From positions 15,355,001 to 15,419,000 of the forward strand of contig NC_092566.1 of NCBI RefSeq assembly GCF_037975245.1: 64,000 nucleotides of DNA, read 5' to 3'. Source of the DNA: Apostichopus japonicus (lineage: Eukaryota > Echinodermata > Holothuroidea > Aspidochirotida > Stichopodidae). This document shows positions 14,814-34,256 of this stretch, in pieces. Under the pieces are notes generated by a model that searched no databases, was not told the DNA's origin, and was given only the letters and a program-made list of their open reading frames with translations. Numbering within the stretch: position 1 is the first letter of the stretch; every line of letters begins with the position of its first letter. The translations under genes and the position numbers were made by a program.

Positions 14814-15100
14814 TTATTTACCAAGGGCGTGTATGGCGTTGTTTGCATGGTGCACCAGTGAGTGCCACAAGCTTTTCTCTTCTGGGGTTAGTTCGTCAAA
14901 TCCCTCTGGATTCAACGCAGCCATTTTCTCCTCTAAGTCATCAAGCAAAGCATCTTTGTCCTCCCCATCGTCTCCAGCGAAGTCCCTCTTTCCTGGCTCA
15001 TTTGCTGCTGGCTTACCATGCCGGAAACGATGAAACAGATGCTTCAAAAATCCTCGGCGAACGAGAGCATCGTCGAAAGTTTCGTCCTCCATCGGGGCAG
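14814..15100 (-). CDS. Gene A exon 2 (propeptide and peptide modules)
   Basis: This exon codes residues 20-114. The acceptor CAG is at 15103-15101. An internal ATG at 15092 would give a 92-residue protein without a signal peptide; the spliced start is preferred because the same exon layout recurs in genes B and C. An AATAAA overlaps the stop codon (14818-14813), which would leave a very short 3' UTR; no other clear poly(A) signal is seen nearby. Confidence 0.8.
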
Positions 15101-16899
15101 CTGTAATAATAAATATTGTATAATGTGTGGTTAGGTCGAATTATTTTTAATTCAGCGCGCCAATGAGAAAATAGTTTGCTGGAAAATGTAAAGCACAGAT
15201 ATGTTTATGTCGGTATCTGGAGTATTAATGTGGCGGCTTGTAAATAACCCCCCCCCCCCCCCAAAAAAAAATAGTACAAGGCTCAATAACGTCATGTGTG
15301 GGTTGTGCAAGTTTGTGTGGTGTGAAGGGGAAGGAGAGTGGGAGGGGAGGGGGTTGGTGTAATCGACGGGGATCCAGGAGACTTGGTGATGATGAGGGAT
15401 AAAAGGGGACAGCAAGGCTAGGTGGAATAGGGTGGGGACAATGGAAGATCGAGAGAAACAGTGAAGGCAAACGGGCGAGGTTGGATGAAAGTGGGAGGGG
15501 TGGGACATCGACAAAGAGGGGAGAAGCAAAGGAAAGAGAGACGAGAGGTGAAAAGAGGGAGAGGTGAAGAGGGAGTACACTTGAGCGTTTAATAAAAACC
15601 ATTATCAGGGATGTGCCCAGGACTTCCTGAGTGCCGGGTATACTGATCGCCGTCCTGGGGGAGGGTCTAAGTGGGAGGGTGTGTCCCCCTCCCCTTTGTG
15701 AAATTTTTCGATTTTTGAAGGTGCTCAGATGCCAAATGCTGGCACTTGTGTAGCTTGTGAAGCACATACACAAGTACTATAGTTTTGCTAACAATTTACA
15801 TTTTTTATTTTTTTTTAGTGAAATATATTACGTACCTGGTAAAGTTATGGTACAGTTTGTTTCAAAGAGATTTTACAAGGGACCGATTGAGATCCGTAAG
15901 TAATGTTTCTCGCATGGGTAACTGATGCATTATAGTCTGTATGACTTTGGCATATAGGCTAGGCCCAAATTATGTTAAATATATTGTTAGGAATGTCGGT
16001 ATTTTAGATGAAAATAGTGCTGGGCGGGATCAACGATTTTTTTAAGACAGTGCTGGGCGGTAATTTTAGTGCTGGGCGAGGCTGCCCAGTGCCGCCCAGC
16101 GTATAGGCACATCCCTTCATTTATGTTTGATAGTTGGCTATGCACTATACTAGGAGTGTTCTCTTCCTCTAGAAAGGAGAAACTAGCACAATCAAGGATG
16201 CCCATTCCAACTAACATTCATATACATACGTCCACACACACACACGCACTAACATATATGGTAATACTTGCTAAGGAGAAACAGTTTATAACATGAATCC
16301 ACATACACGGAAATGTGCCAAAACCGTATTTTCCTATACCACAATACCAAAATATTGCGATAAATGATAATTACGAGTTTACGGATACTCGATCACCAGT
16401 TAGTTAAGCAATGGTTGGGTCAATGTAAACCTCATTTCGAAGTGGGTGAAGTTGTAGGGGAAATATCAAACGGTTATACCAGGTAGTATACAGGCATAGT
16501 GGAAACTTGTTAAAACAGTTATCTTCTTTACTGACTTTAATACATTTTTCGATATTTTCCAATACTGAAATCAATAAGAATGCAGTTCATTATCTTGAGA
16601 AAGGGACGTTTCAAGTCATGCAGTATTATTTAAGAGGATATTTATCTTTAGAATTTTTCCCAATGTTCAAAACCACTTAACCTAACGTTAATACCCTTAA
16701 CAATAGAGTTCTTCGGGGAACGTGGTGATTCTTTCTCAAATGATGTATGAGGACTTGGTATTCCTTTGTTAAAGTCTTCAATCGGAATATAAAACAGGTG
16801 CTTGGACACACACAGAGCCCAACACACATATAAAGACTTACCAACGATTGCTACAGTGCAAAAGACGAGCGCCAAGATCACACACCGGAGAACTGCCAT
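14814..16899 (-). CDS. Peptide gene A: secreted His-rich, amidation-type peptide precursor (114 aa, two exons)
   Basis: Exon 1 is 16899-16842 and exon 2 is 15100-14814; donor G|GTAAGT and acceptor TTATTACAG join in phase 1. I do not recognise a named family. Seen: residues 1-19 form a hydrophobic signal peptide (MAVLRCVILALVFCTVAIV); an E-D-E motif follows at 24-26, then a dibasic RR at 34-35. Next comes a basic aromatic/His stretch (36-47, GFLKHLFHRFRH) followed by Gly-Lys, and a Gly-Lys-Arg at 56-58. An acidic spacer (59-94) ends in LTPEEK, and the last 19 residues, SLWHSLVHHANNAIHALGK, form an amphipathic, His-rich helix ending in Gly-Lys at the stop. Family knowledge: trimming of Lys would expose Gly as an amide donor. 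Inferred: secreted precursor of a C-amidated, possibly antimicrobial peptide, comparable in style to tunicate clavanins or sea-cucumber holothuroidins but not shown to be homologous. It is transcribed divergently from gene B. No cysteine is present after the signal peptide. Confidence 0.8.
15223..15595. repeat. C tract and purine-rich stretch in the gene A intron
   Basis: AAATAACCC, a C run and an A run at 15240-15270, then about 290 nt dominated by GGGAGG, GAGAGA and GGTGAA words. Antisense open frames (Ser/Pro/His/Leu) are artefacts of this bias. Confidence 0.8.
15606..16116. mobile_element. hAT-like non-autonomous element in the gene A intron
   Basis: The termini are CAGGGATGTGCC on the left and GGCACATCCCTT on the right, a near-perfect inverted repeat. 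The interior is rich in GCTGGGCGG-like words and carries G-rich and C-rich tracts near the left end. The same family, in opposite orientation, occurs at 48440-48775 in IVD intron 3. The target-site duplication is not clean here (CATTAT / CATTTAT). Confidence 0.65.
16842..16899 (-). CDS. Gene A exon 1 (signal peptide)
   Basis: This exon holds 58 coding nt, the same length as exon 1 of gene B, and ends after the first base of codon 20. The start is the only ATG that gives an uncharged hydrophobic N-terminus followed at once by a consensus donor (GTAAGTC, intron from 16841). The protein begins MAVLRC; gene B begins MALIRC. Confidence 0.8.
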
Positions 16900-16995
16900 G
16901 TTTAGTTTGTCTTGATGATAGTAACTTCGAAATCTCGAAAATGTTTGAAACAGTCTTCAAAGAGCAAATGGTGAAGAAGAGAACATCCAATGACC

Positions 16996-17002
16996 TTTTT
17001 AT
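16996..17002 (-). promoter_or_regulatory. TATA-like box of gene A
   Basis: CATAAAAAGG on the minus strand lies about 100 bp upstream of the gene A ATG. Gene B has TATAAAAAG at almost the same distance (about 101-103 bp in both), which supports a shared core promoter. Confidence 0.5.
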
Positions 17003-17004
17003 GG

Positions 17005-17250
17005 AAAAGGGGCTAGACTTTGAAAGCCATTGAATTGGGAAATGTCGGTCAAAGGAGCAGGTACGATAAATCAGAACCAAATCTAGTCGCTAGCTTGAAG
17101 GATAAAAAGAAATTTGAAACAATCTAATGGGGCAAAACTTTGAATGTTATCTACTTGGAAATGTCTGTCAAAGGAGCGGGTACGATAAATCAGAACATTA
17201 GTTGGTATTAACTTGAAGGATGGAAATAAATTTGAAAGAATCTAGGGGAG
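17005..17250. repeat. Two-unit tandem repeat upstream of gene A (period about 119 bp)
   Basis: Both units contain the words GGTACGATAAATCAGAAC, TCAAAGGAGC and CTTGAAGGAT in the same order, at 17049 and 17168 for the second word. The array directly abuts the TATA-like box of gene A, so duplicated upstream regulatory sequence is possible. Confidence 0.7.
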
Positions 17251-18123
17251 TACATAAATATTGGTGAAAGGAGGCTTGTACGACATGCCAAGTTCATGAC
17301 CGTACCAGTCTGTGATATTCTTCAGCGTAGTAACAGGGGAGCAGAGGGGCAGCCGCCCCCACCCCCACATGTTGTAAAATGGCTGAGGGGGTTGGCCACT
17401 GTCACTATATCATATTAACAAAGGAAGTGGCAGGCAATTAATTTATTATTTTTTGGAAATGTTGATGAAATATTGGAATTCATATAGTTTTGAAAAAAAA
17501 TCATTCCAAACTTTTCAATTTCCCCTCTGGGCCACCCGCTAGGATCTACAAAACTAAATTTAATTCACTAAAGCAGTAAAAAATATATGAGAAAGGTAGC
17601 CTGGTGAAAACCCAGACCCAACACGTGTTGTGCCAAGTGACTTTGATACTTTCCTTCTCTACTGACGATATCTTAGTGGTAGTACACGACGACGTTCGAC
17701 AATGTTTATCTATACATTGCAGTGGTGTAGGGAGCTTTAACACCAAAAGTGAGGGCAGCAAAATGGTGGTGTTTGGAGATATCTCCCAGGAGAATTTTCG
17801 TTTTCACGATCTCCACGAAATTTCGACTTGTCACCTTCAAAGTCTGACTGCTATCTCGATATTACAACTTTATACCGAAATTTCCAGTATTTTGTCTCAA
17901 CATTCAAATTTGATTTCTTTATAATCGGAAAGAAAGTTTCGAGGAATTGCGCTTTGTCTATAACCTAGATTTTTGACCAGTACTATCCACTTGTATCCGT
18001 TTCGTAAAAGCAAAGTCTAATGTGCAATGTTTATCAACGTCATTCACAATGACTATACTTAAACCAAGGAGAAATTGGTAATTCTCTAGATTTTGCATCA
18101 CATGTACTTCGATTTGTGATCTT

Positions 18124-18126
<3 letters not shown>

Positions 18127-18163
<37 letters not shown>

Positions 18164-18206
18164 CTATATATATATATATATAACTATATATATATATATA
18201 TATATA
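18127..18206. repeat. (AT)n array
   Basis: 80 bp of TA with two AACTA interruptions. Confidence 0.97.
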
Positions 18207-18236
18207 TGTATAGAAATTGCCGATGTTTTTATAGAT

Positions 18237-18430
18237 GTAACGAGCAACCGTTCTGTAACTACACCGACGGTAACAGAGGCAAAGGAATAACCAGTGTGAC
18301 TTTTAGCATAGCCCTTTAAGAATAAGGTAAATCATGAACTCCACCAAAATTTTAAAAAAGACTGCACAAACTGGATGATGAAAATTGTTACGGAGCAATT
18401 AGAAATTTTGACATCGGTTAGAGCAGAAAT
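18237..18430. repeat. Inverted partner of 11990-12190
   Basis: Same block in opposite orientation, 6.2 kb away. The two copies flank the foldback structure and gene A. Confidence 0.8.
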
Positions 18431-19280
18431 ATGGAGTTTTGGAACATCTTTGGTTGCGAAGTCTTGCACGAGATGTCGCAAGAAACAGCCACAACAATTT
18501 TCGCTCCCTTTGGAGGACGATAAAGATAGAATTGAACAAATCAAACGGTACATGGTATTGTTTGAACCTGCAATCATTATATTGAGTATATAAGTAAATG
18601 GAGTAGGTAACAATATTTAGTTTGCGTAAGAAAGGCTAAAAAGCGACATTTAGAAGTAAATGTCTTTTTCCCATAATTATCGTTACAAAACTTAAAGTTG
18701 TTCAGATTCAAATCCTAAAAATATTTGAAGTGTATGATGAAGTTTTTACACCAAATACTTCCAAAATGCAGCTGATGCTTGTAAACTACAATCTTTGCAC
18801 TTTTACATCACAGAAAAGGTGATTATTTTGGTAAATGAAGGAAATTGGTTCCCGTCAACATGCAACTATATACTGGCTTTAATTTATTCTTGATTAACCT
18901 ACAGCATATTGAATTAAAGATATCATATCATGTTATGTAAGATAAAATATGGTCAATTGGCTGTACCATAAATTTATCACAACGTGTAAGGCTATCCGTA
19001 AATAGAGGTAAAAACATATCCTTTCCCCTTGACTAACTAATTTATAGTACTTCAGTATATTCGGAAATATACCTAAGCTTCACGTTACATTTGACAAAGG
19101 TTAGATGTATACAAGGGATGTAATTATTTCCTTCCTGGTTGATGCTTCACCAAATAGTAAATCCGCCGTGAAGGGTCATGATTCATATAGAATTTTATAA
19201 ATCTAAAATCTAGAAGGAAGTACGATGGCGTTTACATATTGATAACTGTAAAATATTTAATAGATACCCGAGGAGATTTC
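18431..19280. other. No gene seen
   Basis: A short frame begins inside the adjacent repeat (18375-18593) and contains CTRC and a charged end, but has no homologous partner in the window. Confidence 0.55.
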
Positions 19281-19467
19281 ATGATCATCATGATCATGAT
19301 CATTATGATCATCATGATCATCATGATCATGATCATCATCATCATCATGATCATCATCATCATCATCATGATCATGATGATCATGATCATGATCATGATC
19401 ATGATCATCATGATCATCATGATCATGATCATGATCATCATCGTCATCATCATCGTCATCACCATCG

Positions 19468-19499
<32 letters not shown>

Positions 19500-19525
19500 A
19501 TCATCGTCGTCGTCGTCGTCATCAT
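19281..19525. repeat. ATCATG-type palindromic microsatellite grading into TCG repeats
   Basis: GATCAT/CATGATCATC units for about 160 bp, then (TCATCG) and (TCG) triplets. The first half is self-complementary every six bases. Confidence 0.95.
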
Positions 19526-20121
19526 TAATATTAAAAATTAATTTAAGTGTGAGATGTGGTATAACAATGATCTAACTGAATTTGTTTTATGTCATATACA
19601 CGAGATGAAATCGGTCGAGAAGTGGATTATATGTTCAGGTGGGCCTCGATTTTTGTATGGGTTTACACTGGTTGTATTCTAGGCCACACACCACAACCGA
19701 AACCTCGAGTCCTTATCCGATCTCGATTCCAATTGCGTCCTCGTTTATTCGGTTACTTTTCAAGAAAAAATATTGCCACGTTTATTGCTTAAACTAAGTG
19801 TCGATTTATGTCTGGCAAGGACTGGGTCAGGGTAAATGTATTTAATACCGGGAGTACCACCCCCCCCCCCCTTGTAGTGCACACTTGGCAAGATGGCACT
19901 ATATCTGATTTTGAATTTACTACGAAACAAATAATCAGGCCGGGAAAGCTGCGCCGTGCCGACATGCCAAATGAACGATGGTACCATGTACCTCCGTCAG
20001 GGTTTATAATGTTGTATAGTCACTGTTGAATTTGCGTGAGGTACATAGTATTAATACTTAGCCAATGCTTACTTAATGCTACTGACCTCCGTGAGGATGT
20101 CAGAGGTAGATCAAATGTAGT

Positions 20122-20526
20122 CAGTGGCGTAAGAAGGTACTTTTGAGTGGGGGGCTGAAGACTGGTGGCCGGCCTGGGGGAGGGGTCTAATGCAATTTGG
20201 TGCAATATAGCACACTTCAACACCCACTCCATGTTGTAAATAATTTTGCATTTTCACCTGGCCTTAGCTGCAATTTGGTGCTCCAAATGAGATTGTTTTC
20301 TGCCAAAATGTTCTGAGCACCAAGGGCAGTGAGTTTCTTACTGACGATTATCCACAATCGCACAAACAAGTCATCACCATGTTGAGAATAAGATTGGAAA
20401 AAATTATTGAGAAATGAAAAAGGGGTTTTCTGACTTGCGAAGCGGGGGGGGGGCGGAATGATACCACCGCCCCCATATTTTTTACTGGGGGGCTAGCGCC
20501 CCCAGCCCCCGGTCCCTACGCCCTTG
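20122..20526. mobile_element. hAT-like element with exact 8-bp duplication
   Basis: Ends CAGTGGCGTAAG and CCCTACGCCCTTG; duplication AATGTAGT at 20114-20121 and 20527-20534. The element is 405 bp, has G-runs and GGGGGCTAGCGCCCCC, and carries no coding capacity. Confidence 0.9.
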
Positions 20527-20579
20527 AATGTAGTAAAGTAGTAGGAAAGAATAGAATAAATGCTGGAAAATATGTGTTA

Positions 20580-20960
20580 ACCCTGCGTCACACTGTCCCG
20601 AAATTGAGGAAATGTTCAAATTCGGCTCTGATCGTTAAAACATCGGAACATTCGTGAGGGCATCTTAAGCCATCGTGTGACCGCCGGTGGAATTTCTTAG
20701 GCTCCGGCAGCAACTTCGTGAGCGCTGGCAAAATCTTTGGAACGCCAAAAATCTGCCGAAAGCCCTTGCGAAGGTTCATCTTCGTGTTGCCTTCGTGTGT
20801 GGTTCGGGTGTCATCGTGTGACCTTCTGTAGACATCGTACTTGCTTCGGCTGTTGATTGGCTGTTGACGAAGTTCGGGGCCATCTTCGTGCGAAATTCCA
20901 AATGCCATATTCGTATGGCCATCGGGTGTCAATTTCGGGACAGTGTGACGCCTGCATAAA
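20580..20960. mobile_element. Terminal-inverted-repeat element, GCGTCACACTGTCCCGAAAT type
   Basis: The two ends carry a near-perfect inverted repeat of about 24 bp (GCGTCACACTGTCCCGAAAT and onward). The interior is rich in CTTCGTG and CATCGTGTGACC repeats. A clear target duplication is not seen and there is no coding capacity. Confidence 0.75.
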
Positions 20961-22090
20961 GGCAATACAATTAGTTATATATAAGTTCTAACCAAAAACG
21001 AGACTTTGCTAAATCCAGGACTGTTGGTTTCCGTAAGTCTGGAAATGCAGAACCGTATAAAGGAAAAGCATCCTTCCGAGTGTTGCTATAATAGAAATGA
21101 TACCCATGTTTAATGTCCACGAAGTTAATATTCATGAGTTATGATATTTATGGTTTCAAGTTACATGTTCTAACTAACGTCTGAATTGTTGGTACCTCCC
21201 TATTAATTGACCGTGTGTTGGCAAACACACTATTATTTCCTAGATCTTATAATTCCAATAATGGGGTCAAATTTTGTGTGGAGGAGGGGAGGGTAAGATT
21301 AGTGATCACCGGAGGTTGAATTCTGTGTCGGTTGAGAAATATTTTCAAGTGATTTTGTAATACACTACTATATATAAATTGAAGGTTAATATCACTAATC
21401 AGAAAAAAAAAATTTACATATACCCTGCAAAAAAGACATTTTCAATGCAAATGACTTATTATCTGGAACTAACTTTCTGTAGAGTTAACGACTTGAGAAT
21501 TAAAATGGCTTTGTGGTGGCATCTACCTTGTGTCACTACACTACAGTTATTACATACAGATCAGTGGTCACCACCGGCTCAGACGAGATGCAAAGAGAAA
21601 GAAGAAAAAACACTTTTATGGCCTTGATTTTAAAAAAGACCAATTTTATTCCCCAGGAAAAAAATTTCGTTTTGTTTTACACCTCTGCATGAATGCTCCG
21701 TCTATTGAATGAAACTGACCCCTTTCTCTCTTTTTTGAGAAACTTTAAAATATTTTTAGAAAACAATTGAGGAACCTACAACTGTAGATGTTTTTGTTCT
21801 CAGTATTAAAAAAGAAAACAAAATTATATAGAATATGTTAATCATGTATTATAGGCTATATGGTAATGTATTCGAAGGTCATGATGTCACATGACTTGCT
21901 CTGCAATTCGAGTCGCTTGAAACGTTTCATCATTAACCTGACATTAAGGGCACATTAAATCAAAAACTCATACTATAAATATAACTTATGTTCTGATCGG
22001 AAAATGATACCATAACATGATTTACATTACCCTCCTTTTTTCGACAAAGATATTCTAATTAATGAGTCTTTACAATTTCTGTATTTTTTT
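20961..22090. other. Upstream region of gene B, no other gene seen
   Basis: AT-rich sequence ending at the TATA box of gene B. Confidence 0.6.
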
Positions 22091-22093
22091 TCC

Positions 22094-22100
22094 TATAAAA
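22094..22100 (+). promoter_or_regulatory. TATA box of gene B
   Basis: TATAAAA lies 102 bp upstream of the gene B ATG. A transcription start about 30 bp downstream would give a 5' UTR of roughly 70 nt. Confidence 0.6.
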
Positions 22101-22195
22101 AGCAATGTTTGTTTCATGTCCTCCTCAATCCTCTTTTTGCCGACGCTTTTCAACATTCCAGAAAGTCTAGAAGTTAAATTAGTCGAAAACGAAAC

Positions 22196-22253
22196 ATGGC
22201 GCTTATCCGATGTTTAGCCTTTGCCTTCATCGTTTGCTCGGTCAAAACTTTCG
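22196..22253 (+). CDS. Gene B exon 1 (signal peptide)
   Basis: This exon has 58 coding nt and ends after base 1 of codon 20. Length, phase and sequence (M-A-[LV]-[IL]-R-C) match gene A exon 1. Confidence 0.8.
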
Positions 22254-24246
22254 GTAAGATGCTTATTCTTTGGTTGGTTTTCTTCCGTCGAAAGTTGTCC
22301 ATTCTGAATATTGTAACTTTCATATTTCTGTTTAGAGTATAAGACCATCATTTATTTGCAAGTGCTTGTTGATGTTGTTAGAGGTCAGTTGTATACATGT
22401 TTTATTTTTTTAGAAAGGCCTGTTTACGTACATGTTTTAAAGCGATTATATAGTGTACTGATATTATAACCGAAATTAATCTAATAATTTTAATTGAACG
22501 CCTTTTCTGACAATGTCTTACTTGCATCCAATGCGAGGAGGGTTCTGATCCCTGCATGGTTTCACCGAAGTGCAAGGTGCACCGAATGCACCGAAGTGCA
22601 AAGAGACTGACTTCGGTCAGCTTGCGGCTTTGATAAGCCAATGAGGCTTCTTCGCGAGTTCCTGCTTGCAGGAGGATCTAACATATACAAATACAAAAGT
22701 GATGTGGCGTCTCACCGATAAACCGTCAGCAAATGAAAAATTAGGGATCGCCACCAACCAAGAGCTTCAGAGCTCAGTTGGTGGTGGACATGATTTGTAA
22801 TGCTGAGATCACTTGTTCGTGTTTTTTTTTTTTCCTTTTTTTTTTACTTTACCGATACTTCAAATTAGCCGTTTTCAAAGTTTTTTTAAATAACCTTTTT
22901 CTTTGTGAAATTTCTTTATACCTGAAGTTTCTTCTGGGGTGGTAGAGGAAGGAGTGGTTCGTAAATGTTTGAAGGCTGAACAAAGTACCCGAAATCTCGC
23001 AAAGTACTGTATATTTTCGCGGTATTCAAGTTCTCGCCTTATTGGTATGACTTTGGGTTGGACGATATTCTTGTTTTACCTAGGAGATGTGAAGTTATAC
23101 AAAAACTTAAGTAATCACCTTTTCTATTTGGAATCACTATTTTATGTGTTCATATTGAGATCCATCCATCCAATGTTTTGAAGTAAAATGTTGAATGTAA
23201 ATTTTGGAGAAGAAAAATATAGAACAAAATTAATCAATGTGCTCCTTCGGTACCATACTTGTCAGCCCGCAGGCTGCTTCAAGTTCACTTTTGGGTGAAC
23301 AATCTTTTTTGTGATCTCTAAATCAGATGTTTACAACCTATTATTATCTTGCAAACCAGACGCGCTGCATGAACATCTGACTAGCACCAACATATCTATC
23401 TTTTCATGGACTATAAAATGTCAAGACTTAATCTATGCCGAAAGCAATCTTTTGACAAATTGGTCTGATCTGATCTGATCTGGTCTGATCTGATCTGATC
23501 TGTGGCGCTGAATCCTCTTAACTGGATTGTTAAAGTCTTGTTTCAGACGTTAAAAAACTGTATGACTGAATTATGTCCAAAGAATTAAAAAAGAAAGGAA
23601 AATAAAAAATTGTGTTTACTTTCTCGTACTATAAGATATCAAGACTATTCTGACAATTCATCCTGAAAATATAAATGAAACAAAAAATGTCCACCAAATC
23701 ATAAGCAATCCACATTTATACACCACCATTCTTATTTATATACTTATTAAAGCCTCTTCCATCGAGGACGAAGTTCTTGACGCGGATGCCCTTAGTCGCC
23801 GCCGCCACCGCCACGGATGGTTTCATAAATTGTTCCATCATCACCACCATGATAAACACCACCATGGTGAACACCACCATGGTGAACACCATAACCCTAA
23901 CCCTAACCCTAACCCTACTGGTGAACCAGCCGACAACGAGAATCAGCCAAAACAGAAAGAGGAAAGAGAAGTCATACACGATAACAGAGAGAATGCCATG
24001 CTAGATGACTTCGAGAAGAAAATGGCTGAGTTATCTCCAGAGGAGCGTTATGGCTTGCATGCTCTCTTACACAATGTCGGTAAACATGTTGCTGAACACA
24101 TTGGACGGAACTTAAAAGCTAGAGTGTTGGCCGAAGAAGGGGAGCGACTGCCCGAGGGATACGACGAGCTAACACCTGAAGAGAGAAGCTGGTATGGCAC
24201 CCTGGGGAAAGCTGCTTTAGGTGCATTGAGTCTCTTTGGTAAATGA
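22196..24246 (+). CDS. Peptide gene B: secreted His-rich precursor with two amphipathic peptide units (183 aa, two exons)
   Basis: Exons are 22196-22253 and 23753-24246 (donor G|GTAAGA, acceptor ATTAAAG, phase 1). No named family is recognised. Seen: signal peptide 1-19 (MALIRCLAFAFIVCSVKTF); E-D-E at 24-26; RRRHR at 35-39; HGWFHKLF at 40-47 leading into a His array to residue 66 in which HHHDK, HHHGE, HHHGE repeat; Asn-Pro x4 at 67-74; an acidic/polar spacer at 75-113. Two unit copies follow. Unit 1: SPEER (114-118), then YGLHALLHNVGKHVAEHIGR (119-138). Unit 2: LPEGYDELTPEER (152-164), then SWYGTLGKAALGALSLFGK (165-183, end of protein). Both peptides are followed by Gly plus a basic residue, an amidation-type end. 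Gene A has one unit with the same PEG[FY]DELTPEE[KR]S spacer. Inferred: extracellular His-rich, metal- or pH-responsive, probably antimicrobial peptides balanced by an acidic prosequence. Function is not proven by sequence. Confidence 0.83.
22600..22690. repeat. Dispersed repeat in gene B intron, inverted match at 42040-42130
   Basis: CTGACTTCGGTCAGCTTG, TAAGCCAATGAGG and GTTCCTGCTTGCAGGAGGAT are shared in opposite orientation with IVD intron 1. Confidence 0.75.
23461..23503. repeat. (TCTGA)n pentamer array in the gene B intron
   Basis: About eight units of TCTGA with two TGG interruptions. Confidence 0.9.
23753..24246 (+). CDS. Gene B exon 2 (His array and two peptide units)
   Basis: This exon codes residues 20-183 in one uninterrupted frame; the His-rich part is 15-bp repetitive DNA and the Asn-Pro stretch is written as telomere-type hexamers. 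AATAAA signals follow the stop at 24388 and 24403. Confidence 0.83.
23838..23888 (+). repeat. 15-bp coding minisatellite (His array of gene B)
   Basis: Units of CACCACCATGGTGAA and close variants repeat about three times in frame and encode HHH-D-K / HHH-G-E. In-frame 15-bp steps allow length change without a frameshift. Confidence 0.85.
23892..23915 (+). repeat. (TAACCC)4 telomere-type repeat inside a coding exon
   Basis: Four perfect TAACCC units (TTAGGG on the other strand) lie in gene B exon 2 and are translated as Asn-Pro x4. TTAGGG is the usual metazoan telomere unit. Confidence 0.95.
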
Positions 24247-24387
24247 ATACTGCGGGAAAGAAGCTTGTATCTGACCCAAACTGACCGATATTTAGTCTAT
24301 AGACACCCATCCTATCAAGGGAAATATTTCCCATGTACTTTAGTATTGTTTCGATTTCAAGTAATGGTGGTGGATTGACTTTTTTGG

Positions 24388-24408
24388 AATAAATAATCAG
24401 AAAATAAA
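24388..24408 (+). terminator. Poly(A) signals of gene B
   Basis: AATAAA occurs at 24388-24393 and again at 24403-24408, about 140-160 bp after the stop codon. Confidence 0.6.
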
Positions 24409-25185: not shown

Positions 25186-26280
25186 ATGTGTAAAAGTAAG
25201 TTGGCCTGACGTTTCGATCCTAGCAGGATATTCTTCAAAGGCTAAATGACAAGTAACAGTAACCGAAGGGACAAAAACACGCACAGAATACAGACAGGTT
25301 AATGAGCATGGTGAACAAAAAGAGATAGATGTAAGGGGATTAGTAGACAAGGGACGGAGTGAAAGAAAAAAAAGGAACCAACAGGGGAAGAGGAGAGGTA
25401 GGAGATACACAGTGGAGTGACAAAGAGAAGATTAAGGGAAGGGGGTATGGAATAAACTGGAAAAGGACAAGGACAGAAAGGTGTGGAGAAAAAGGGGTGG
25501 AAGAGAGCTATGTGAAGAGGAGTGATGGGGGGGGGGGGGGGACAATGGGGAAAAGGACGGGAACAGAAGAAAAGTTAGTCATGTCCTTCCTGAATGTTGA
25601 GCCCATGAGGTTGAATGGTGCGAAGGCGTTGCATCCACAGCCTCTCTGTGTTGATTCGCACTAGGCCAGGACGGCTGCGTAAGGATTCAATACCCTGTAG
25701 GGACATGTCGTTAATGGTATGGTTGGGAAGGTTAAAGTGTTCTCCAGCTGGGGTCTCAGTCTTCATGGTGTTGACTGTGGATCTGTTACCATAGAAGCGC
25801 TTCTTGAGGGTGGTTTTGGTTTTGCCAACATACTGGATGCCGCAAACTCTACAAGAGATCAGATATATGACATTAGTGGTTGTGCAAGTGATGTGACCCT
25901 CAGTCTTGTGTGTGAGTTGCATGCTGTGGCTGGTGATGGAATTGGATTCAGCAATGTGGTGGATGAAGATGATGCATCTGGAATAACGATCACATTTGAA
26001 AGTACCATGCTGAATGGGTGTGGGGTTAGAAGTTAGAGGTGGGACAGCAGCACGCACAAGGTCTCGTAGGTTTGCGGGGTCGTCTGTAGGCGATGATGGA
26101 TTTTTCAGGGACGGCTCGTTGGAGTCTATCTCAAGTGAGGAGAATGTTGTGGTTGTTAAATGTGATTTGCTGAAGAGGAGGAAGATTTGGGTGGAAAGTA
26201 ACAACCAAGGGGAGCTTGTTGTCGCAATCTCGTCCCTTTTGTTCTTCACTGCCAAAGTAGGTGTAAGTAGTCGCTCATGA
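25186..26280 (-). mobile_element. Penelope-like retroelement fragment (GIY-YIG endonuclease end)
   Basis: A minus-strand frame at 26255-25575 gives NVIYLISCRVCGIQYVGKT, then RF and a GEHFNLPNH block, ending ERLWMQRLRTIQPHGLN. This is the C-terminal GIY-YIG endonuclease of Penelope-like elements (IYLI for GIY, QYVG for YIG). The reverse transcriptase part is absent, so it is 5'-truncated. Downstream at 25201-25242 lies a sequence resembling the hammerhead motif these elements carry. Confidence 0.82.
25201..25242 (-). ncRNA. Hammerhead-like motif of the Penelope-like element (degenerate)
   Basis: Minus strand: TTGAAGA, then a stem ATCCTGCTAGGAT, then CGAAACGTC and AGGCC, which can pair with GCCT upstream. 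The order matches hammerhead core boxes CUGAUGA / GAAA / cleavage UC; box 1 has two changes (C3 to U, U7 to A). Confidence 0.5.
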
Positions 26281-26534
26281 TTGGTCGGAAAAGCTACGTC
26301 ATCACCATAGAAACCTTCACTTCGAGGTTACCAAAATATCTGGATCCATTCTTTGCAACGAAGATAATACCCGTTCAAAATTACCCGAAGCTGTTCGTAT
26401 CTTTGGAATTGGTTTAGACATATTTAGCACACTAGTTTGTTATGATTGTATGATCTACTATCGATATTTGATCGAAGTTATTTTTGAAGGCATTAATCGG
26501 TAACGGCGCACAGTGAAAGTTTCATGGGTGGTGA

Positions 26535-26700
26535 TCCGTATACTTCCGATTGGGGGGCATATGACCTTGTTGACTATCTAAGCGTAGCGCCACCATAGGT
26601 TGGCGCGAAGCTTACAAGAAAATGTTGGGATTTACAAACCCTCTAGATGGCCGGAAACGGCACTTCCCGAGGTTTCCAAGCGGCATATAACCAACTTTAA
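26535..26700. repeat. Fragment of the hAT-like core repeat
   Basis: It contains CTATCTAAGCGTAGCGCCAC, TAGGTTGGCGCGAAGC and GATGGCCGGAAACGGCAC; no termini can be identified. Confidence 0.65.
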
Positions 26701-26994
26701 AATAGGGATATCATGTCCGAAATATCTCATAATCAGGATCCAAAATACTTTTTTTTTAAATTTCGGGTGTTATTTTGGGAAAATTGCCCCTGTCAATCTT
26801 CTTTCAGGCGCTTCGTTAGAATGTTCGAGAGCTCTTTTATATTATAAGATGAAGAAAATAGCCACATGCAGGCTATTATAGGCCTATACACATGCAATAC
26901 ACAATTACACATAGTTACGTTCCGTTGCTTTTTAGCTAGGGAAAACCTGATGAGTTGAACTTAGGGAATAACGCGACGACCTAGCAAATGTAGG

Positions 26995-27070
26995 CTAACT
27001 TGGCCGGGAATTACGATGGTAGAGTGCTCGCCTGCGGTGACAATTGGAGGTCCCTGGTTCAAACTTCGGT
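26995..27070 (+). repeat. tRNA-like SINE fragment
   Basis: ATGGTAGAGTGCTCGCCTGC (box A type) and CTGGTTCAAACTTCGG (box B type) lie about 30 bp apart; degenerate. Confidence 0.5.
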
Positions 27071-29655
27071 ATCAACATCTGATCCAAAACTTCCCTCCAC
27101 TCCTTTCTCTATGAAAACTAATAAATCAATATAGGAGAGGCTAAGTCTCCATCCCCGAGTTCTGTTGCTATTTGCAAGGAGAGGAAAGTGTTTGCAATCT
27201 CTGGCAAGTGGACAGCAGTTCTCACGTTGGTTGGATGGGGATATTAAATGACAGTCCTGTAAGTAGGATTTTGACCCGCCTGCCTGAAAACATCTCACTT
27301 TGCGCCTAGGGGTCTATAGAGTTCAGAGGTTGAACCTGCCCATTGAAAATATCTGTGTAATGTGTCTTAGGTGCAAACTTTTCACTACGACTATTCACTA
27401 ACAACAGCAAACGTTTGGGAATAATTATTTCTGCATTACAGCTACATTTCAGATTGCCAGACAAACTACCATATTATAAGTTTAAGGCGTTTACTCATCA
27501 TGCTAAGCTGCGATCACGAATGGACTTAATTAATGATTAGATAATTATTAGAAAACCATTCAGTGTAAAAAGTACCTTGTTTTGAAAGTACATCCCAGGT
27601 TAGTCGATAAAATTCTGTTGGGTCGAACACTTAAGCCCTTCTGTCCTGGCATCCATACTGCTCGCTAGGTACGATGATGCGTAAATGTAGGCATGAAAAT
27701 ATTCTTATCCCTGGCATTTGGTGGGAGGGGGGATATGGTGTATTACATCCCCTCCACCCATTTTCATGTGGGGATATATCCCCCCATCGCCCCAGGATCG
27801 CCGCCCATGGAAAGTTTCGTACAGGATACATCACATAAGTGCTATATAACTATATGTATTATAACTGTGTACACAGTGCAGTAACGGAAATGGGTCATTC
27901 CGTGTCAAATCACGGATGGCTGTTGCTGCACCCTTTCCAAAAATTCCCAAATTTATTGTATGATTGGACCACCATAAAATAAGCATATTCTGAAAATTTC
28001 AGTTGCATTGCTTTACAATTGGCCGATTTATCACACTTTGAAATTCCGCAATTTGTCGCCACCATGGCATTTTCTTGACTTTTGAGGTCTCATTTCTCAG
28101 CAATTAAACATTCTACTACCTTTCTAATACAGATGCCTAAAGAGTCTATCCCATAGAACAGGAAAATAAAAAATTAGGCTACATAAATATTGTCTTGTGG
28201 AGTTAGGTCAACTTAAAAGTGTCAAAATATTTGATTTTTGTACTTTTCACTAAAAAATGTGCTATTTTTAGTGATGAATTGCTCCTAAACCATTGCTTCA
28301 GGGTACTTGATTCTTTCAGAGGTTATTATGTCTAGTACAAATATTACAAAATAATGATTACAATGCTTTCCTAGACTATGTTTGCAAGTTGTGCCACTCT
28401 AAAGTTGCTATTTCATGCTGCGATTCAGCATGAGGTAGGGGTTTTGATGCCAATTGTTTACCAAAGTAACCATGTTAGAGGTGTCAGGGTTTATACTTTA
28501 TTAATAAGTATAAAGTTCTTACACATTAACAAATTTCAGGGTTCTAGCTGTTCTCAATATTAATTTATGAAGTTGTTAAGTTGCTCCGATGTACAAAAGA
28601 GGTCGTTTTTGACGGCCAATAACTCAAAACGCGTCAAATTAAAAAAAATTGATAATTTTTTCTGGAAGAGATATAGTACCACCCTGTTTGTACAAAAAAT
28701 TTCAGGAGGGTGTTTTGCCTTATTTTGAAATGAAAAATCCTCAAAGTTTGTCAAAGTCAGTACACGTGAACCCGCGCCCTAAAGTTGCTTTGAGTGTACC
28801 CATTCCACGAAACGAATTCCGAATTTCAATAGAACAGCTCACGAATCTTGGATAACGTAAACACGAACCCAATGGAATGTAGCGTAAATGTATCATAAGT
28901 GAGGTCAACATGTGATCCAAAGTTAAAAGTAAAGTTAGGGCGTTCTAAGGAAAACTAGTGCCAGTGTGTAATTCAGTGTATATGTCTTCAAACTTCCAAG
29001 CGATGGTCCTTATTGGTGCTGACGTCACGAGCAAACTGATTAGCTGAAAACGGCGTAATTGCAAACCTGTTTGGGGGGAAAAAAATTGCATCATGGGCTA
29101 ACAAAACAGAAAATACAAGACCACCGCCTTATACACAAAATTGCAAAACGTGCTTACTTGTCGATTCTACTAGGGCCTTTTCAGAGCAAACAAACTACAC
29201 CCAAGCTCCGAGTCCGGCAAAATATAAACTGCCTACCTAAATAGATCATTTACCTCATCTTTTTCTGCAATATATTTGTCACCTCTCCCTGTTCTCCGAG
29301 TCCCATAGCATTTACTTCTTTACTAAAGCAGGGCGATAAAAAAAAACTGATCATTTGCACCATCTGCTCTCATCTCTTAAAAACTTGCCTGCATTTGCGT
29401 CTCTTTCAGGGACGAATCTTTCAAAATGACCAAAATTTAGGAGAGAAGAACCAGGTTAGGTGATTGCATTTTGGTGCTACACCATTTTTACACTTCATAA
29501 TACACAACGCGGTGTCAGTCAAATTTTTCATGAAAACAAGCTGTATATGAGAACAAGCTGTCCGTACCAAGTTTTCAACTGCACATGCATATGTCATAGT
29601 TCCGTGTCATCTTCTAACGATATTGAAACAATAAAACATACCTACATGAATTGCA
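27071..29655. other. No gene seen
   Basis: The stretch 27890-28860 begins GGGTCATTCCGTGTCAAATC and ends with a related CCCATTCCACGAAACGAATT, so it may be a dispersed element, but I cannot define its ends. Confidence 0.5.
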
Positions 29656-29703
29656 TATATATATATAGATTTTCATTTATATATATATATATATATATAT
29701 ATA
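29656..29703. repeat. (AT)n array at the SINE end
   Basis: TA runs flanked by inverted copies of GATTTTCATTTATAT / ATATAAATGAAAATC, so the stretch 29668-29713 can form a hairpin. Confidence 0.9.
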
Positions 29704-29990
29704 AATGAAAATCGTAATGAGTTGGAAAATCAAGAACAGTGAAAAAACTTCAGCCTCCACCGGGATTCGAACCCGGGCCTCCCGCTTTGTACGCGGACAC
29801 CCTAACCAACTAGGCCATGGACGCTGATTGTATGTCCAGAGGTTCTAAACCGGTAAGGAAGGTCGTAATTCCACTGTAGGCGTTTGTCACCTGTATCGAA
29901 CAATACTAGTTCTGCTTTTGGTGACATATATTGCCTTACTCTAGAGATCAAACATGATGCTAACCAACTCGAAAATCATTTGTGATTCCT
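29703..29990 (-). mobile_element. tRNA-derived SINE
   Basis: A 74-nt tRNA-like module at 29752-29825 (minus) has box A TGGCCTAGTTGG and box B GGTTCGAATCC. It sits in a longer unit whose other part (TGTATCGAACAATACTAGTT) recurs at 33220-33310, with an AT microsatellite at one end. Confidence 0.75.
29752..29825 (-). tRNA. tRNA-like module (SINE head), loop reads ACA
   Basis: 74 nt with 6 of 7 acceptor pairs, a 5-bp anticodon stem (TCCGC/GCGGG) and a seven-base loop GTACAAA, so formally anticodon ACA (Cys). Animal tRNA-Cys uses GCA and the D stem is poor, so I read this as SINE, not a functional tRNA. Confidence 0.35.
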
Positions 29991-32190
29991 AAAGCCGGAT
30001 CTCGAAAGATCTAGATAGAACACTAGGGATATAAGCGGATTTCTTACAATTAGTCCTCTTTTGAACATGCGCAGCTCAACTCATAAAAGTCAAGATCTCT
30101 TAACATTATTTTATCAACCAATTAAAAGGTGCAAATTTAGGCAGAATATTGAGTTGAATATGTTCTGGACAGCTATAGAAAACACTGATAGAGCAGTCCA
30201 GGTTGTACGTATATACCACTTTAAGCAGCTAATGTTCATTTCTTAAGTGACTGGACTAAATAGTCTAACACATTATATTAGTTCAGTTCCACACAAGCAA
30301 CAACGGGAAAACATAAGTATGTCATGGCCTCTAACAACATGTTTACGGTAAACCCTATAAAGTAGCTAAGGATAAATGATGTTGCATGCATGTAATCCAA
30401 GTATGCTCTGTTATTTATATATAAACATATTTCGAAGGAGATGTTAGAATTTATTTTTAATTAAAAAAAAAAGGATTAGTTTTAACATTTAGTCCTGTAC
30501 TGAGGAATCGACTTCATCATAAGTCGAAAAGGGAATATTTCCGAGAAAATGATAATTTAGTACGAGGTATATAGGCTATAAGCGTTGGTATATGTTGTGA
30601 CCCGCGGATTGGGTACAGAATTAATTCCGTGTTTTCCTTCATGATCTCTGAAGTTCCCACCTCGTATTTAAAGCAATACACCCCCCCCCCACCCCCACAA
30701 ATTAAGGTAACATATTTGTTTCATATGCAAATTGCAAGTAATATATTTTCAGGTATAGCTGGTGTTTCTTGCTTAAGGACCAATTGAAACATGACCAAAT
30801 TTAAACTAACTTTAGACAAATGCAGATTAGAACGACCTTTAAAATTATTTGCGGTCCCAGCCCCCTCCCACTAAATAATTTTTTTTTCTGAAAGTGAGCT
30901 TCCTAAGGGATCATTATTCAGCCACCGCGACTCTTTCAAGGTGGAAATACTAATTTTTCTTTTAAATTATTTGTTATGATAACAATAAATTAAGATTATG
31001 ACTTGGTTGTAATCTAGAAACGGGTGAGGGTACGTACATTTCATTATTTATTGGCATATTGTTTACACATGCCCGCAGAATTACTTGACTAAGAAACAGG
31101 AAATTACTGAGGGGGTCATAAAACAAACATTGACAGCAAAGGAGAGAAGTAGAAAATTAGTATGCATAACAACAAAGATAAAAGAATGAACAGCAATTCA
31201 GACAATAACAGGCAGAAATAGAAAGAGTTTCCCATGGGGATGGTGGTGTCAGACCAACACCCCCCCCCCCTCCCCGCCACTGAACCCCCGCCCGCCTTCG
31301 GAACTTAAGCTGTATTTCTCGCCTATAGTCTTCTTGCTCTTGGTCTTTGCGTTATTCCGTTTTTTGGAAACTTTTCTGTCCATTTGCCGTGCCGTTATAT
31401 TACAAACGCATATTAAAAAGATGTTAAAGGTTAGTAACGCTCTTCCTCTTATCAGGCTCAAACAGGGTTACATCATCCCCTGCAATTAATAGCGACCTAT
31501 CAGGTAAACTAGAACTCTTTGCATTTCGAGTGTAGTTTAATTCCTTTTTTTTTCTCTCTCTCTCTTTTATATGCAACTAGGTAGACGCGACCAAGGCACT
31601 GCGGACGATATTTCATTAAAAAAAAACTTTTTTTCACAATTTTAATTGAGAGTATATATTAATTAACAGTAAAAAATAAGGCAACTCGTACAACGCTTGA
31701 TGTGGATTCAAGAAATCTTTGGGAGGGAGAGAGGAGGGAGGAGGGAGGATCGAGGGAGAGAAGATGACAAATACTCATATATAGCTACGATTTTTCAACA
31801 GGAACTCCGCCCCCCCCCCCTCCCATACCCTTTCAAGCCAACCCGAAAACTATACCCCCAGCATGTCATTAAATACTCTCGTAAAATAGTCAGTACTGCC
31901 TCAAAACGATTTTGTTATTGCGCATATACTTGACCACACTTGACCTGTAAGTGAATACTTTACTGGAATGGCAGGAAACACAATGAAGATTAATTGTCCA
32001 TATAAGTCGATTAACAACAACATGATTTATGAGTTGTCTGTTGTCTCTGGACAGAGTTACTTTCATAAATCTCTATAAGTTAACTTCTTCGTGTATTCTC
32101 ACGTTACGGAACATACATAACCCACAAAATGATTAATCACGTTTTTTTTTTTTTTTTTTTTGGGGGCAAGTTTACCCAGTTTCTGTTCCG
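29991..32190. other. No gene seen upstream of gene C
   Basis: Contains C runs at 30680 and 31261, an AG-rich patch at 31725-31760 and a T run at 32143-32160; no coding signal. Confidence 0.6.
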
Positions 32191-32317
32191 TACATGATTT
32201 TAAAAGTAGTATTTATTTGCTCTGTGAAGCCGGAACAACGTTTCTTTGCTCTGCTGAAAATTTTGAACATTTCACTGAAGACTTAATTTCTTGCTGCTGC
32301 TAAATTTCCTCAACAAA

Positions 32318-32378
32318 ATGTTGTCGGTGCATCGTGGTCTGGTTCTGTTGCTAGTCTTTGGCTCAGTCGTTTCATTCG
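32318..32378 (+). CDS. Gene C exon 1 (signal peptide)
   Basis: This exon has 61 coding nt, one codon longer than exon 1 of A and B, with the same phase-1 end. A weak TATA-like TTTTAAAA lies at 32198-32205. Confidence 0.7.
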
Positions 32379-33820
32379 GTGAGTAAAGAAGCATGCACTG
32401 TATAACCATTAAAAATGTGTATGTAATTTTGTTGACTTAGTAGGCGACCTATATTGTTTAGTAACATGGTAAATTTAGGCAACATTTGACTTGAAGTTAG
32501 TGATATTATTTTGTCATGTAAAGTAGTCTACCTATATTGTCTTGCTTGAAACACTGCAGGCCTAGTTTTCCTCTTTGACCTTGGGAGAACAGAGAGCAGT
32601 GACATAACACTGCTTATACTACAATCGATGAAAAGTTTTCGTGTTATGTTTTTGGGCTCTTATTTTTATTTGAGTTTATTAAAAGTCAAAGTTCAGGCAA
32701 CTTAGGCGACACCCATTATTGCTCAATAACTTCTCTGAACTTTCTGAGATGTTTTTGATATTTCATTTCATTTCATTTATTTGTTTCCATATTCAAAATA
32801 TATTACACAATAATAGAAGAAAATGTATGTGACAAGTGGAGGAGGTCTGAGAAAGCCGAGGCTCTTACGAGGCAGACCCCCTGTACAAAGACAATAAGAA
32901 AAGAACAAAAATGAACAATGCATGCAATAAAACAAAGGTTGCACACACAAATAAACCATGTAACTGTACTTACGTTACATAAGATAACATTATGCAATTT
33001 AAAGAATTATCATATACGTAATGACAAAAAGAAAATGAAATGAAAAGAAAAAACCAAAAAATATGTATTACCTTAGCCTGTTCAGTAATTGGATAAAAGT
33101 AAATGCTTCAGATTTTTAGAAAAGATTGGCAGTTCGTGTGATTTCATTATTTCATTTAACAGAGTCTGTTCAAAGTATCTCTTTCGAGTTTCCGGCCTTA
33201 GGAATTCACAAATGATTAATAATTAGTTAGCATCATGATTGATCTCTAGATCGAGTAAGGCAAAATATGTCACCACAAACAGAACTAGTATTGTTCGATA
33301 CAGGTGACCAGGGTTATAGCCACGCCTGCCGGCCGGCATTGGAAGTGAATAAACAGTCCACTGGCCGGCACAAAAAAATAGTAAAATGCTTGTGAAATAC
33401 AACAAAAGTAACAAATTTATCTTTCCCTTGCCGTAAAACATGATAATAACGTCACCTTTTTCTGTTATTTGCCCCTGGACCCCACCAGGGGCCCTTAAGC
33501 GGGCCCTGGACCCCCGGCCGTGAGATGCGAGAGCTTCGCTCGCTACGCTTCGCAAATTTATTGAACCAGCACTCACAATCTCCTAGCTATAACCCTGCAG
33601 GTGACCAAAGCCTAGAGTGGAATGACAAAATTCTATAACTGGTTTCGAACCTCTGGAAATGCAATCAGTGTCCATGGTCTAGTTGGTTAGGGTTTCGCAT
33701 ATAAAGCGAGAGGCCTGGGTTCGAATCCCGGATTCCCGCTGGGAGATTTTTCACTGTTCTGGATTTTCCAACCCATAACAATTTCATATATATATAACTA
33801 TATATATAACTATATATATA

Positions 33821-33911
<91 letters not shown>

Positions 33912-33918
33912 CGATTTC

Positions 33919-34011
<93 letters not shown>

Positions 34012-34256
34012 TATTTAAATATATTGTTTTCCTTTGTATTCCAGTTACTTCTTTAGAAGACGAATCTCCAGCTAATTCCTTGCGTCAGCGATTTCTCTGG
34101 TGGGGTAAGCATCCCAAACCTCAACATGGTCATCATGAGCATCATGGCCATCATGGCCATCAGAGCCATCATGGCAATCAACACGGTGGTAAGCAGGAAG
34201 CCAATCACGAAACGAGAGAGTTGGAGGAAGGACCAGAAGTCGTTGCAAATTACTAG
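32318..34256 (+). CDS. Peptide gene C: secreted His-rich precursor, C-terminal unit out of frame (90 aa, two exons)
   Basis: Exons are 32318-32378 (donor G|GTGAGT) and 34045-34256 (acceptor GTATTCCAG), phase 1. Seen: signal peptide 1-20 ([20 protein letters not shown]), the E-D-E motif at 25-27, then R-Q-R (34-36) and FLWWGK (37-42). A His-rich run at 43-67 is built on H-H-G steps, followed by GGK, an acidic tail and a stop after residue 90. Genes A and B continue with [ST]PEE[RK] plus a helix. Here a comparable SLPEERW segment and a basic amphipathic stretch lie just after the stop in the +1 frame (about 34258-34353), so the gene is either frameshifted or has lost its last module. The signal peptide and His array are intact, so a shortened product may still be made. 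AATAAA at 34370 fits either reading. The intron is full of repeats. Confidence 0.7.
33186..33790 (+). mobile_element. tRNA-derived SINE, interrupted by a hAT-like element (gene C intron)
   Basis: Same family as 29703-29990; tRNA-like part at 33667-33740 with box B GGTTCGAATCCC and loop ATATAAA. The acceptor stem is decayed. The insertion at 33309-33597 splits it. Confidence 0.75.
33309..33597. mobile_element. hAT-like element inside a SINE in the gene C intron
   Basis: Perfect inverted repeat CAGGGTTATAGC / GCTATAACCCTG; duplication CAGGTGAC at 33301-33308 and 33598-33605 (exact). The flanks rejoin the tRNA-like SINE found uninterrupted at 29703-29990. Confidence 0.92.
33785..34008. repeat. 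(AT)n array in the gene C intron
   Basis: About 220 bp of TA dinucleotides with ACTATA and TTTACGATTTCAAT interruptions, ending 36 bp before the exon 2 acceptor. Confidence 0.97.
34045..34256 (+). CDS. Gene C exon 2 (His-rich module)
   Basis: This exon codes residues 21-90. The DNA is a 9-bp-type CATCATGGC repeat in the centre. The frame closes with TAG at 34254. Confidence 0.7.

Follow-up and report, generated by a model that had tools for sequence, protein, structure and literature searches.

The muscle-active SWYG peptides and an anticancer histidine-rich peptide of the sea cucumber Apostichopus japonicus belong to two separate lines of research, and both lead to one gene. This gene (gene B) lies in the 64,000-nucleotide stretch of genomic DNA analysed here, referred to as the window. 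Gene B is already known in both guises, as a SWYG myoactive precursor and as the anticancer His-rich peptide rAj-HRP; new is that the two are one gene, adjoined by an unnamed sister (gene A). The anticancer peptide thereby gains a natural precursor, and a further peptide, one reported to act on cells, is assigned to the SWYG precursor. A sequence-only reading of the window had proposed an undescribed system of no named family. Neither description holds for gene B: it falls among the SWYG precursors, a family already named in A. japonicus (PMC6586643), its His-rich stretch has appeared in print as rAj-HRP30 and its C-terminal end holds the published SWYG-2.

Genes A, B and C (table 1) have GT-AG splice borders and phase 1 introns throughout; the first coding exon measures 58 nt in A, 58 nt in B and 61 nt in C. 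Splice sites, phases and lengths of the spliced models were reproduced exactly, and the predicted splicing agrees with deposited models: P0005 is 100% identical to gene A, P0001 equals gene B minus 13 residues, and P0008 (BSL78_00529) is near-identical to gene C with the same C-terminal end. The exon layout proposed earlier is indeed shared, with introns of 1.50–1.74 kb rather than 1.5–1.7 kb. The translations support secreted peptide-precursor genes with a His-rich segment, in the layout of neuropeptide or antimicrobial precursors, the signal peptides being assigned by eye. They also contain the E-D-E motif, the stretch PEG[FY]DELTPEE[KR]S common to A and B, and mature parts free of cysteine, as had been noted; no cysteine follows the signal peptide in A, B, C or P0001–P0008. 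Net charge along the chain runs -3 / +3 / -11 / 0 in gene A and -3 / +1 / -7 / +4 / -6 / +1 in gene B, an alternation that sets acidic pieces against basic peptides. The C-terminal amphipathic helix claimed for both proteins agrees with a helical moment above that of shuffles (A, p 0.0015; B, p 0.0105; uncorrected, with 16 segments examined). The moment of the N-peptides and middle segments was not above shuffles.

Table 1. Features of the three genes, in window coordinates.
Feature	Position	Strand	Remarks
Gene A	14814..16899	(-)	114-aa SWYG-related precursor without SWYG motif; deposited P0005
Gene A exons	16899-16842 and 15100-14814	(-)	intron 1741 nt, phase 1
Gene A N-peptide GFLKHLFHRFRH	15018..15053	(-)	predicted; between RR site and G-K
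Gene A C-peptide SLWHSLVHHANNAIHAL	14823..14873	(-)	followed by G-K-stop, predicted amidation signal; helical moment p 0.0015 (uncorrected)
Gene B	22196..24246	(+)	183-aa SWYG-type precursor
Gene B exons	22196-22253 and 23753-24246	(+)	intron 1499 nt, phase 1
Gene B His-rich peptide, residues 37-66	23803..23892	(+)	published rAj-HRP30
CCCTAA telomere-type repeat, coding	23893..23919	(+)	read NPNPNPNPT; inside the 13 residues that P0001 misses
Gene B middle segment YGLHALLHNVGKHVAEHIGRNLKARVL	24049..24129	(+)	predicted helix; module in P0007, not in gene A (alignment)
Gene B C-peptide SWYGTLGKAALGALSLF plus G-K	24187..24243	(+)	starts with published SWYG-2 heptapeptide SWYGTLG
Gene C	32318..34256	(+)	90-aa secreted His-rich protein; family membership plausible only
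Gene C exons	32318-32378 and 34045-34256	(+)	intron 1666 nt, phase 1
Gene C His-rich segment, residues 37-69	34092..34190	(+)	

The predicted protein of gene B contains rAj-HRP30 as residues 37–66. The rAj-HRP30 primers (PMC11854995), when translated, give both ends of this segment, which has 30 aa, 16 His (53.3%) and a mass of 3919.1 Da; the same values stand in the rAj-HRP30 paper. The longer rAj-HRP is described with 67 aa, 16 His and a pI of 7.31 (PMC11548021), and residues 1–67 of gene B have 16 His and a pI of 7.31. The published numbering of the segment is 38–67 rather than 37–66, and the published mass is 7.99 kDa where residues 1–66 and 1–67 of gene B have 7.86 and 7.98 kDa. Given this shift by one and the mass mismatch, the published cDNA is slightly different at its N-terminal end. 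rAj-HRP was published as a histidine-rich-glycoprotein-like peptide and ends ahead of the remaining precursor. Produced in E. coli as a soluble protein (PMC11548021), it inhibits mammalian tumour cells, as does rAj-HRP30, with IC50 values of 5.21, 5.54 and 3.22 uM (PMC11548021, PMC11854995). No mention of SWYG was found in the available text of either paper, and the titles and passages listed in literature searches, mostly outside subscription papers, yielded no link between rAj-HRP and SWYG or between SWYG and centrocins.

The histidines themselves invite a reading in which these are metal- or proton-binding secreted proteins similar to histidine-rich glycoprotein, whose main task would be to handle zinc or copper. 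The count is high (gene B has 16 His within 30 residues, gene C has 14), and a nickel column retained rAj-HRP by virtue of its own histidines; its authors relate it to histidine-rich-glycoprotein-like proteins (PMC11548021). Nickel binding, however, is expected from any His-rich stretch. The run is also variable, being missing in P0004, short in P0002 and reduced to 3 His in the gene A N-peptide, whereas the signal, pro-piece and C-terminal end stay. No Pfam family, the histidine-rich glycoprotein profile included, passed its cut-off with any of the three proteins. Metal handling as the main role seems improbable.

Protein searches with A, B and C matched only A. japonicus proteins and placed gene B in the known SWYG family. 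Gene B matched P0001 (93%), P0002 (67%), the ‘SWYG-3 precursor’ P0003 (71% identity, 96% of the query covered) and P0004 (61%); P0002 contains SWYGSLG, the sequence of SWYG-1. A C-terminal SWYG behind a basic residue is present in gene B (R-SWYGTLG) and in neither A nor C. Genes A and B close with G-K-stop and P0003 with G-R-stop, as C-terminal amidation ends do; gene C ends VANY. NCBIfam gave no match above cut-off for P0003, P0005, P0007 or P0008. Gene B has 183 aa and a longer His-rich run where the published AjSWYGP-2 has 158–159 aa, and the two may be the same gene, alleles or paralogues. The AjSWYGP-2 and AjSWYGP-3 genes are both placed on linkage group 12 (PMC6586643). Five of the eight protein matches sit on records of one identical size, 18,957,574 bases. 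In the window, A, B and C were the sole credible family members among the matches listed by tblastn with ten family proteins. His-coding repeat DNA at 19265–19525 was also matched in that search.

The three genes had been taken for paralogues. For A and B the kinship holds: aligned with their counterpart in B, the final 54 residues of A score 77, which 0 of 2000 shuffles attain, and over four matched blocks dN is 0.34 and dS 0.87. By alignment, A and B are true paralogues, and gene A represents an unnamed branch of the SWYG family without the SWYG motif. Both this motif and the middle module are missing from gene A, and its C-peptide region reads K-SLWHSLV. The predicted peptides appear to have diverged more than the spacers. 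Between A and B the pro-piece and two spacers are identical at 28 of 42 positions and the peptides at 11 of 32 (p 0.006), a contrast set up after viewing the alignment and with the poorly conserved linker excluded; once the linker is included, the A/B contrast has p 0.034 and that of P0003/P0007 has p 0.099.

For gene C the claim of paralogy is plausible only, the shuffle tests being weak. The score of its mature N-terminal part is attained by 184 of 2000 shuffles against A, 48 against B and 106 against SWYG-3, the tail has no match (1491/2000 against A, 802/2000 against B), and blastn at E 1e-3 found no DNA common to gene C and A or B. Gene C may be a His-rich secreted protein without kinship to A and B that happens to be located close to them, its exon layout stemming from the common phase 1 intron after signal peptides; the chance of this is appreciable, somewhat below even. 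Against it stand the adjoining position, the same order of features, the E-D-E motif and an R-x-R ahead of the aromatic/His segment. The signal peptide, too, resembles that of A (3/2000 shuffles; 110/2000 against B). Gene C probably belongs with A and B in kind, as a distant neighbour. A frameshift with loss of the C-terminal end was considered, as another frame past the stop has PEER and then a helix-like stretch. It was rejected because this frame scores 24, below the mean of 27.8 for 353 random window stretches (p 0.85), and because P0008, from another record, has the same C-terminal end.

The best explanation overall, to which we give about an even chance, is that SWYG-family precursors release several secreted host-defence peptides, with the muscle effects secondary or due to fragments. 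The first exon supplies the signal peptide, as its sequence indicates. The proprotein would be cut at basic sites, a step seen by mass spectrometry for the SWYG-3 C-peptide and predicted elsewhere. Removal of the acidic pro-piece ending RR would free the cationic, aromatic/His-rich N-peptide, the acidic spacers would be excised, an additional helix-forming segment would come free from the middle of long members, and amidation would convert the C-terminal G-K or G-R. In gene B, the N-peptide would be the cloned rAj-HRP30 and the C-peptide would hold SWYG-2. The peptides may act as secreted membrane- or cell-active defence agents whose histidines make charge depend on pH or zinc; the reported muscle effects would be a second activity or the work of shorter fragments. 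The peptides of A and B are predicted from the precursors rather than sighted directly, and host defence is favoured as their role, predicted and unproven. The sequence-only reading had called the peptides likely immune; the activities on record are on muscle for the C-terminal end and on mammalian tumour cells for the His-rich end. No antibacterial assay was found in the literature passages available on SWYG or rAj-HRP. Also weighing against defence are the nerve-ring source of the SWYG-3 peptide, the action of SWYG peptides on muscle and the production of rAj-HRP as a soluble protein in E. coli. No kappa-B-type site lies within 1 kb upstream of A, B or C, which is uninformative with only two in the whole window.

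The published view is that these are neuropeptide precursors, in which the amidated SWYG-type C-peptide modulates body-wall muscle and the remaining protein is inert. When the radial longitudinal muscle is stimulated electrically, SWYG-1 to -3 alter its contraction (PMC3432112, table 1), and nerve-ring extract contained amidated SWYGSLASALL by mass spectrometry, for SWYG-3 only, with precursor transcripts in the nerve-ring transcriptome (PMC6586643). The C-peptide, however, is among the least conserved parts (79 of 249 residue comparisons identical between A-type and B-type proteins), and A-type proteins are entirely without SWYG. Low conservation and motif loss are unusual in a receptor ligand. 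Moreover, the intestine was reported as unaffected by SWYG peptides, and the SWYG-3 heptapeptide end was remarked not to lie at a basic site (PMC3432112), so that the SWYG 7-mers may be fragments. We consider the published view somewhat unlikely.

The host-defence reading finds a model in the centrocins of S. droebachiensis and E. esculentus (PMC3561256, PMC4805251). Their precursor has a 20-aa signal, a 30-aa prosequence, a cationic heavy chain, a 24-aa interchain and a light chain with a cleaved Gly-Arg end; in E. esculentus the light chain carries an amide, and a pattern of spacers better conserved than the peptides has been described (PMC4805251). SWYG precursors likewise have a signal, an acidic pro-piece, a predicted cationic peptide with a GWF start, an acidic interchain, a second peptide with a G-K or G-R end, and apparently conserved spacers beside diverged peptides. 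Unlike centrocins, they have a His-rich run and an extra middle segment. Centrocins form a heterodimer with one cysteine per chain; A, B and C, lacking cysteines, would form no such heterodimer. Bromotryptophan and antimicrobial activity are further traits of centrocin membership. Similarity to the SdCentrocin 1 heavy chain was matched by at most 10 of 2000 shuffles for five of seven N-peptides (gene A, 10/2000); those of P0002 and gene C failed. Against E. esculentus centrocin chains, none of the seven passed at 40/2000, and among 40 control pairs two had values of 18 and 21 of 2000. The likeness, as measured between N-peptides and centrocin chains, is short, local and limited to one centrocin, and protein searches with B, A and C returned only A. 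japonicus proteins. That SWYG precursors are the sea cucumber counterpart of centrocins, cysteine-free defence precursors that release several peptides and were spread by duplication and module loss on one chromosome, is a tentative proposal and on balance unlikely. On this proposal a single defence gene would encode the myoactive SWYG peptides at one end and the anticancer rAj-HRP at the other, and what has been classed as neuropeptides in a farmed species might then serve antibacterial defence.

A bacterial origin was once suspected for a partial SWYG-3 precursor (PMC3432112) and rejected from the genome (PMC6586643); the introns and echinoderm matches concur. Gene B found no match among phage records, which adds little. 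Against solved structures, with E allowed up to 10, gene B drew 28 sequences (best 0.086), probably purification tags since they lie mainly over the His-rich stretch (residues 46–87); two pieces had no matches. The prediction for P0007 (seven sequences) has a mean pLDDT of 44.1 and its helices are not evidence at this low confidence; the predicted helicity of the gene B middle segment has this model as its only basis. The CCCTAA run in gene B is the sole run of at least two such units in the window.

Gene B, one of three genes in the window that encode His-rich secreted peptide precursors, is already known, so the undescribed system proposed by the sequence-only reading is not borne out. It encodes SWYGTLG, the sequence of SWYG-2. 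The peptides SWYG-1, -2 and -3 (SWYGSLG, SWYGTLG and SWYGSLA) come from the A. japonicus body wall and alter contraction of the radial longitudinal muscle, the intestine being unaffected (PMC3432112, Table 1). Two precursors have been described, AjSWYGP-2 and AjSWYGP-3, whose genes map to linkage group 12, and SWYGSLASALL-amide was detected by mass spectrometry in nerve-ring extract (PMC6586643). SWYGP2 is absent in embryos and larvae (PMC9598280). Section 43 of PMC6586643 names precursors for SWYG-2 and -3 only; SWYGSLG, the SWYG-1 sequence, is carried by P0002, a deposited uncharacterized protein.

Gene B also matches a published anticancer peptide. rAj-HRP30 has 30 aa, 53.3% His and a mass of 3.919 kDa, and its primers are published (PMC11854995). 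The forward primer translates to RHRHGW and the end of the reverse primer to HHGEHH-stop. Residues 37–66 of gene B have both ends, 30 aa, 16 His (53.3%) and 3919.1 Da. The match is to the window allele and not to the deposited protein P0001, since the latter has 14 His and 3813.1 Da at the corresponding place. The parent rAj-HRP (67 aa, 16 His, pI 7.31, 7.99 kDa; PMC11548021) compares with gene B residues 1–66 (16 His, pI 7.31, 7.86 kDa) or 1–67 (7.98 kDa), the numbering being offset by one. Judged from these matches, SWYG-2 and rAj-HRP would thus be carried by one gene. No statement of this link was found in the literature searched, and the terms SWYG and neuropeptide are absent from the main text of both rAj-HRP papers (PMC11854995, PMC11548021); two literatures are now usefully linked through gene B. 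The telomere-type insert of the window allele starts directly after residue 66. P0001 lacks the 13-residue stretch that includes this CCCTAA repeat, which therefore looks like a recent polymorphic insertion.

The three gene models proposed earlier proved exact in GT-AG borders, phases and exon lengths, and the translations confirm that A, B and C have no Cys beyond the signal peptide. Their standing as three paralogues holds in part. On sequence, A and B certainly belong together: their final parts score 77, equalled by 0/2000 shuffles, and dN 0.34 against dS 0.87 in matched blocks is evidence for protein-level constraint. Gene C shares the layout and E-D-E motif and is a plausible member; between 48 and 184 of 2000 shuffles score as well as its mature N-part does against the family, and in the same test the tail of gene C matches neither that of A nor that of B.

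Features of the window
Feature	Positions	Strand	Details
Gene A	14814-16899	-	first coding exon 58 nt; intron 1741 nt, GT-AG, phase 1; 114 aa
Gene B	22196-24246	+	first coding exon 58 nt; intron 1499 nt, GT-AG, phase 1; 183 aa
Telomere-type (CCCTAA) repeat	23893-23919		in frame within gene B coding part; NPNPNPNPT
Open frame	25575-26324	-	by eye like GIY-YIG type end of Penelope-like element; no Pfam match at E 0.001
tRNA-like sequence	29751-29825	-	Rfam tRNA 54 bits; ARAGORN tRNA-Cys, anticodon aca; adjoins AT repeats
Gene C	32318-34256	+	first coding exon 61 nt; intron 1666 nt, GT-AG, phase 1; 90 aa
Apparent diverged second tRNA-like copy	near 33670-33745		
Related end, by eye, to the reverse transcriptase element	38331-38813	-	no Pfam match
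Reverse transcriptase fragment	40672-41970	-	Pfam RVT_1, E 2.8e-25
Exon with Acyl-CoA_dh_N	49136-49513	+	Pfam, E 8.6e-20

Searching with the gene B protein returned four A. japonicus proteins (P0001–P0004), of which P0003 bears the name SWYG-3 precursor; gene A returned three (P0005–P0007), P0005 being identical to it. A profile search with seven family proteins recovered these seven and P0008 (BSL78_00529), a close match to gene C, which is thus already deposited, unnamed. No protein from another species was among the matches to A, to B or to the profile (best 7994 candidates scored). P0001, P0002, P0005, P0006 and P0007 have records of the same size (18,957,574), so they probably lie on a single chromosome record. 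P0007 bridges A and B, joining an A-type N-end to a middle module missing from A and P0006; A, P0006 and P0007 form an unnamed branch within a known family.

Behind the signal peptide, the precursor would comprise an acidic piece with an RR end, a basic aromatic/His-rich N-peptide, an acidic stretch, a middle segment (long members only), a further acidic spacer and the C-peptide, preceded by K or R and ending in G-K or G-R as a putative amidation signal. From part to part, the computed net charge swings between acidic and basic. For SWYG-3, published mass spectrometry shows that the C-peptide is released in amidated form (PMC6586643); the other cuts are predicted. The longer amidated SWYG-3 is more likely the natural product, because the seven-residue form ends at no basic site (PMC3432112). 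By analogy, gene B would yield SWYGTLGKAALGALSLF-amide.

Host defence, on the model of the sea urchin centrocins, would be the favoured role of the family, at about even odds. In favour of defence, centrocin precursors have the same order of parts as A/B-type precursors, and their light chain likewise has a cleaved Gly-Arg end, amidated in E. esculentus (PMC4805251). Centrocin chains are less conserved than the prepro and interchain parts (PMC4805251). Identity in the pro-piece and two spacers against the peptides is 28/42 and 11/32 for A and B (p 0.006), and 28/40 and 29/64 for P0003, the SWYG-3 precursor, and P0007 (p 0.011), a contrast defined after the alignment was seen and with the linker left out; counting it gives p 0.034 and 0.099. 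Five of seven N-peptides align with the SdCentrocin 1 heavy chain at <=10/2000 shuffles (115 pairs tested; two control pairs at 18 and 21/2000), GWFKKTFH lying against GWFHKLFH; with E. esculentus chains, 0/7 do so at 40/2000. Counted against defence are the missing Cys, a difference from centrocins, and the helical moments, which in neither the N-peptides nor the middle segments exceed those of shuffled sequences. The origin of SWYG-3 in the nerve ring (PMC6586643) also weighs against defence and speaks for a neuropeptide role, the published view, which is here taken as the less likely of the two.

Elsewhere in the window, the reverse transcriptase fragment is probably a non-LTR retrotransposon, and the Acyl-CoA_dh_N exon presumably belongs to an isovaleryl-CoA dehydrogenase-like gene. 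The tRNA-like sequence may be part of a SINE, given its apparent second copy.
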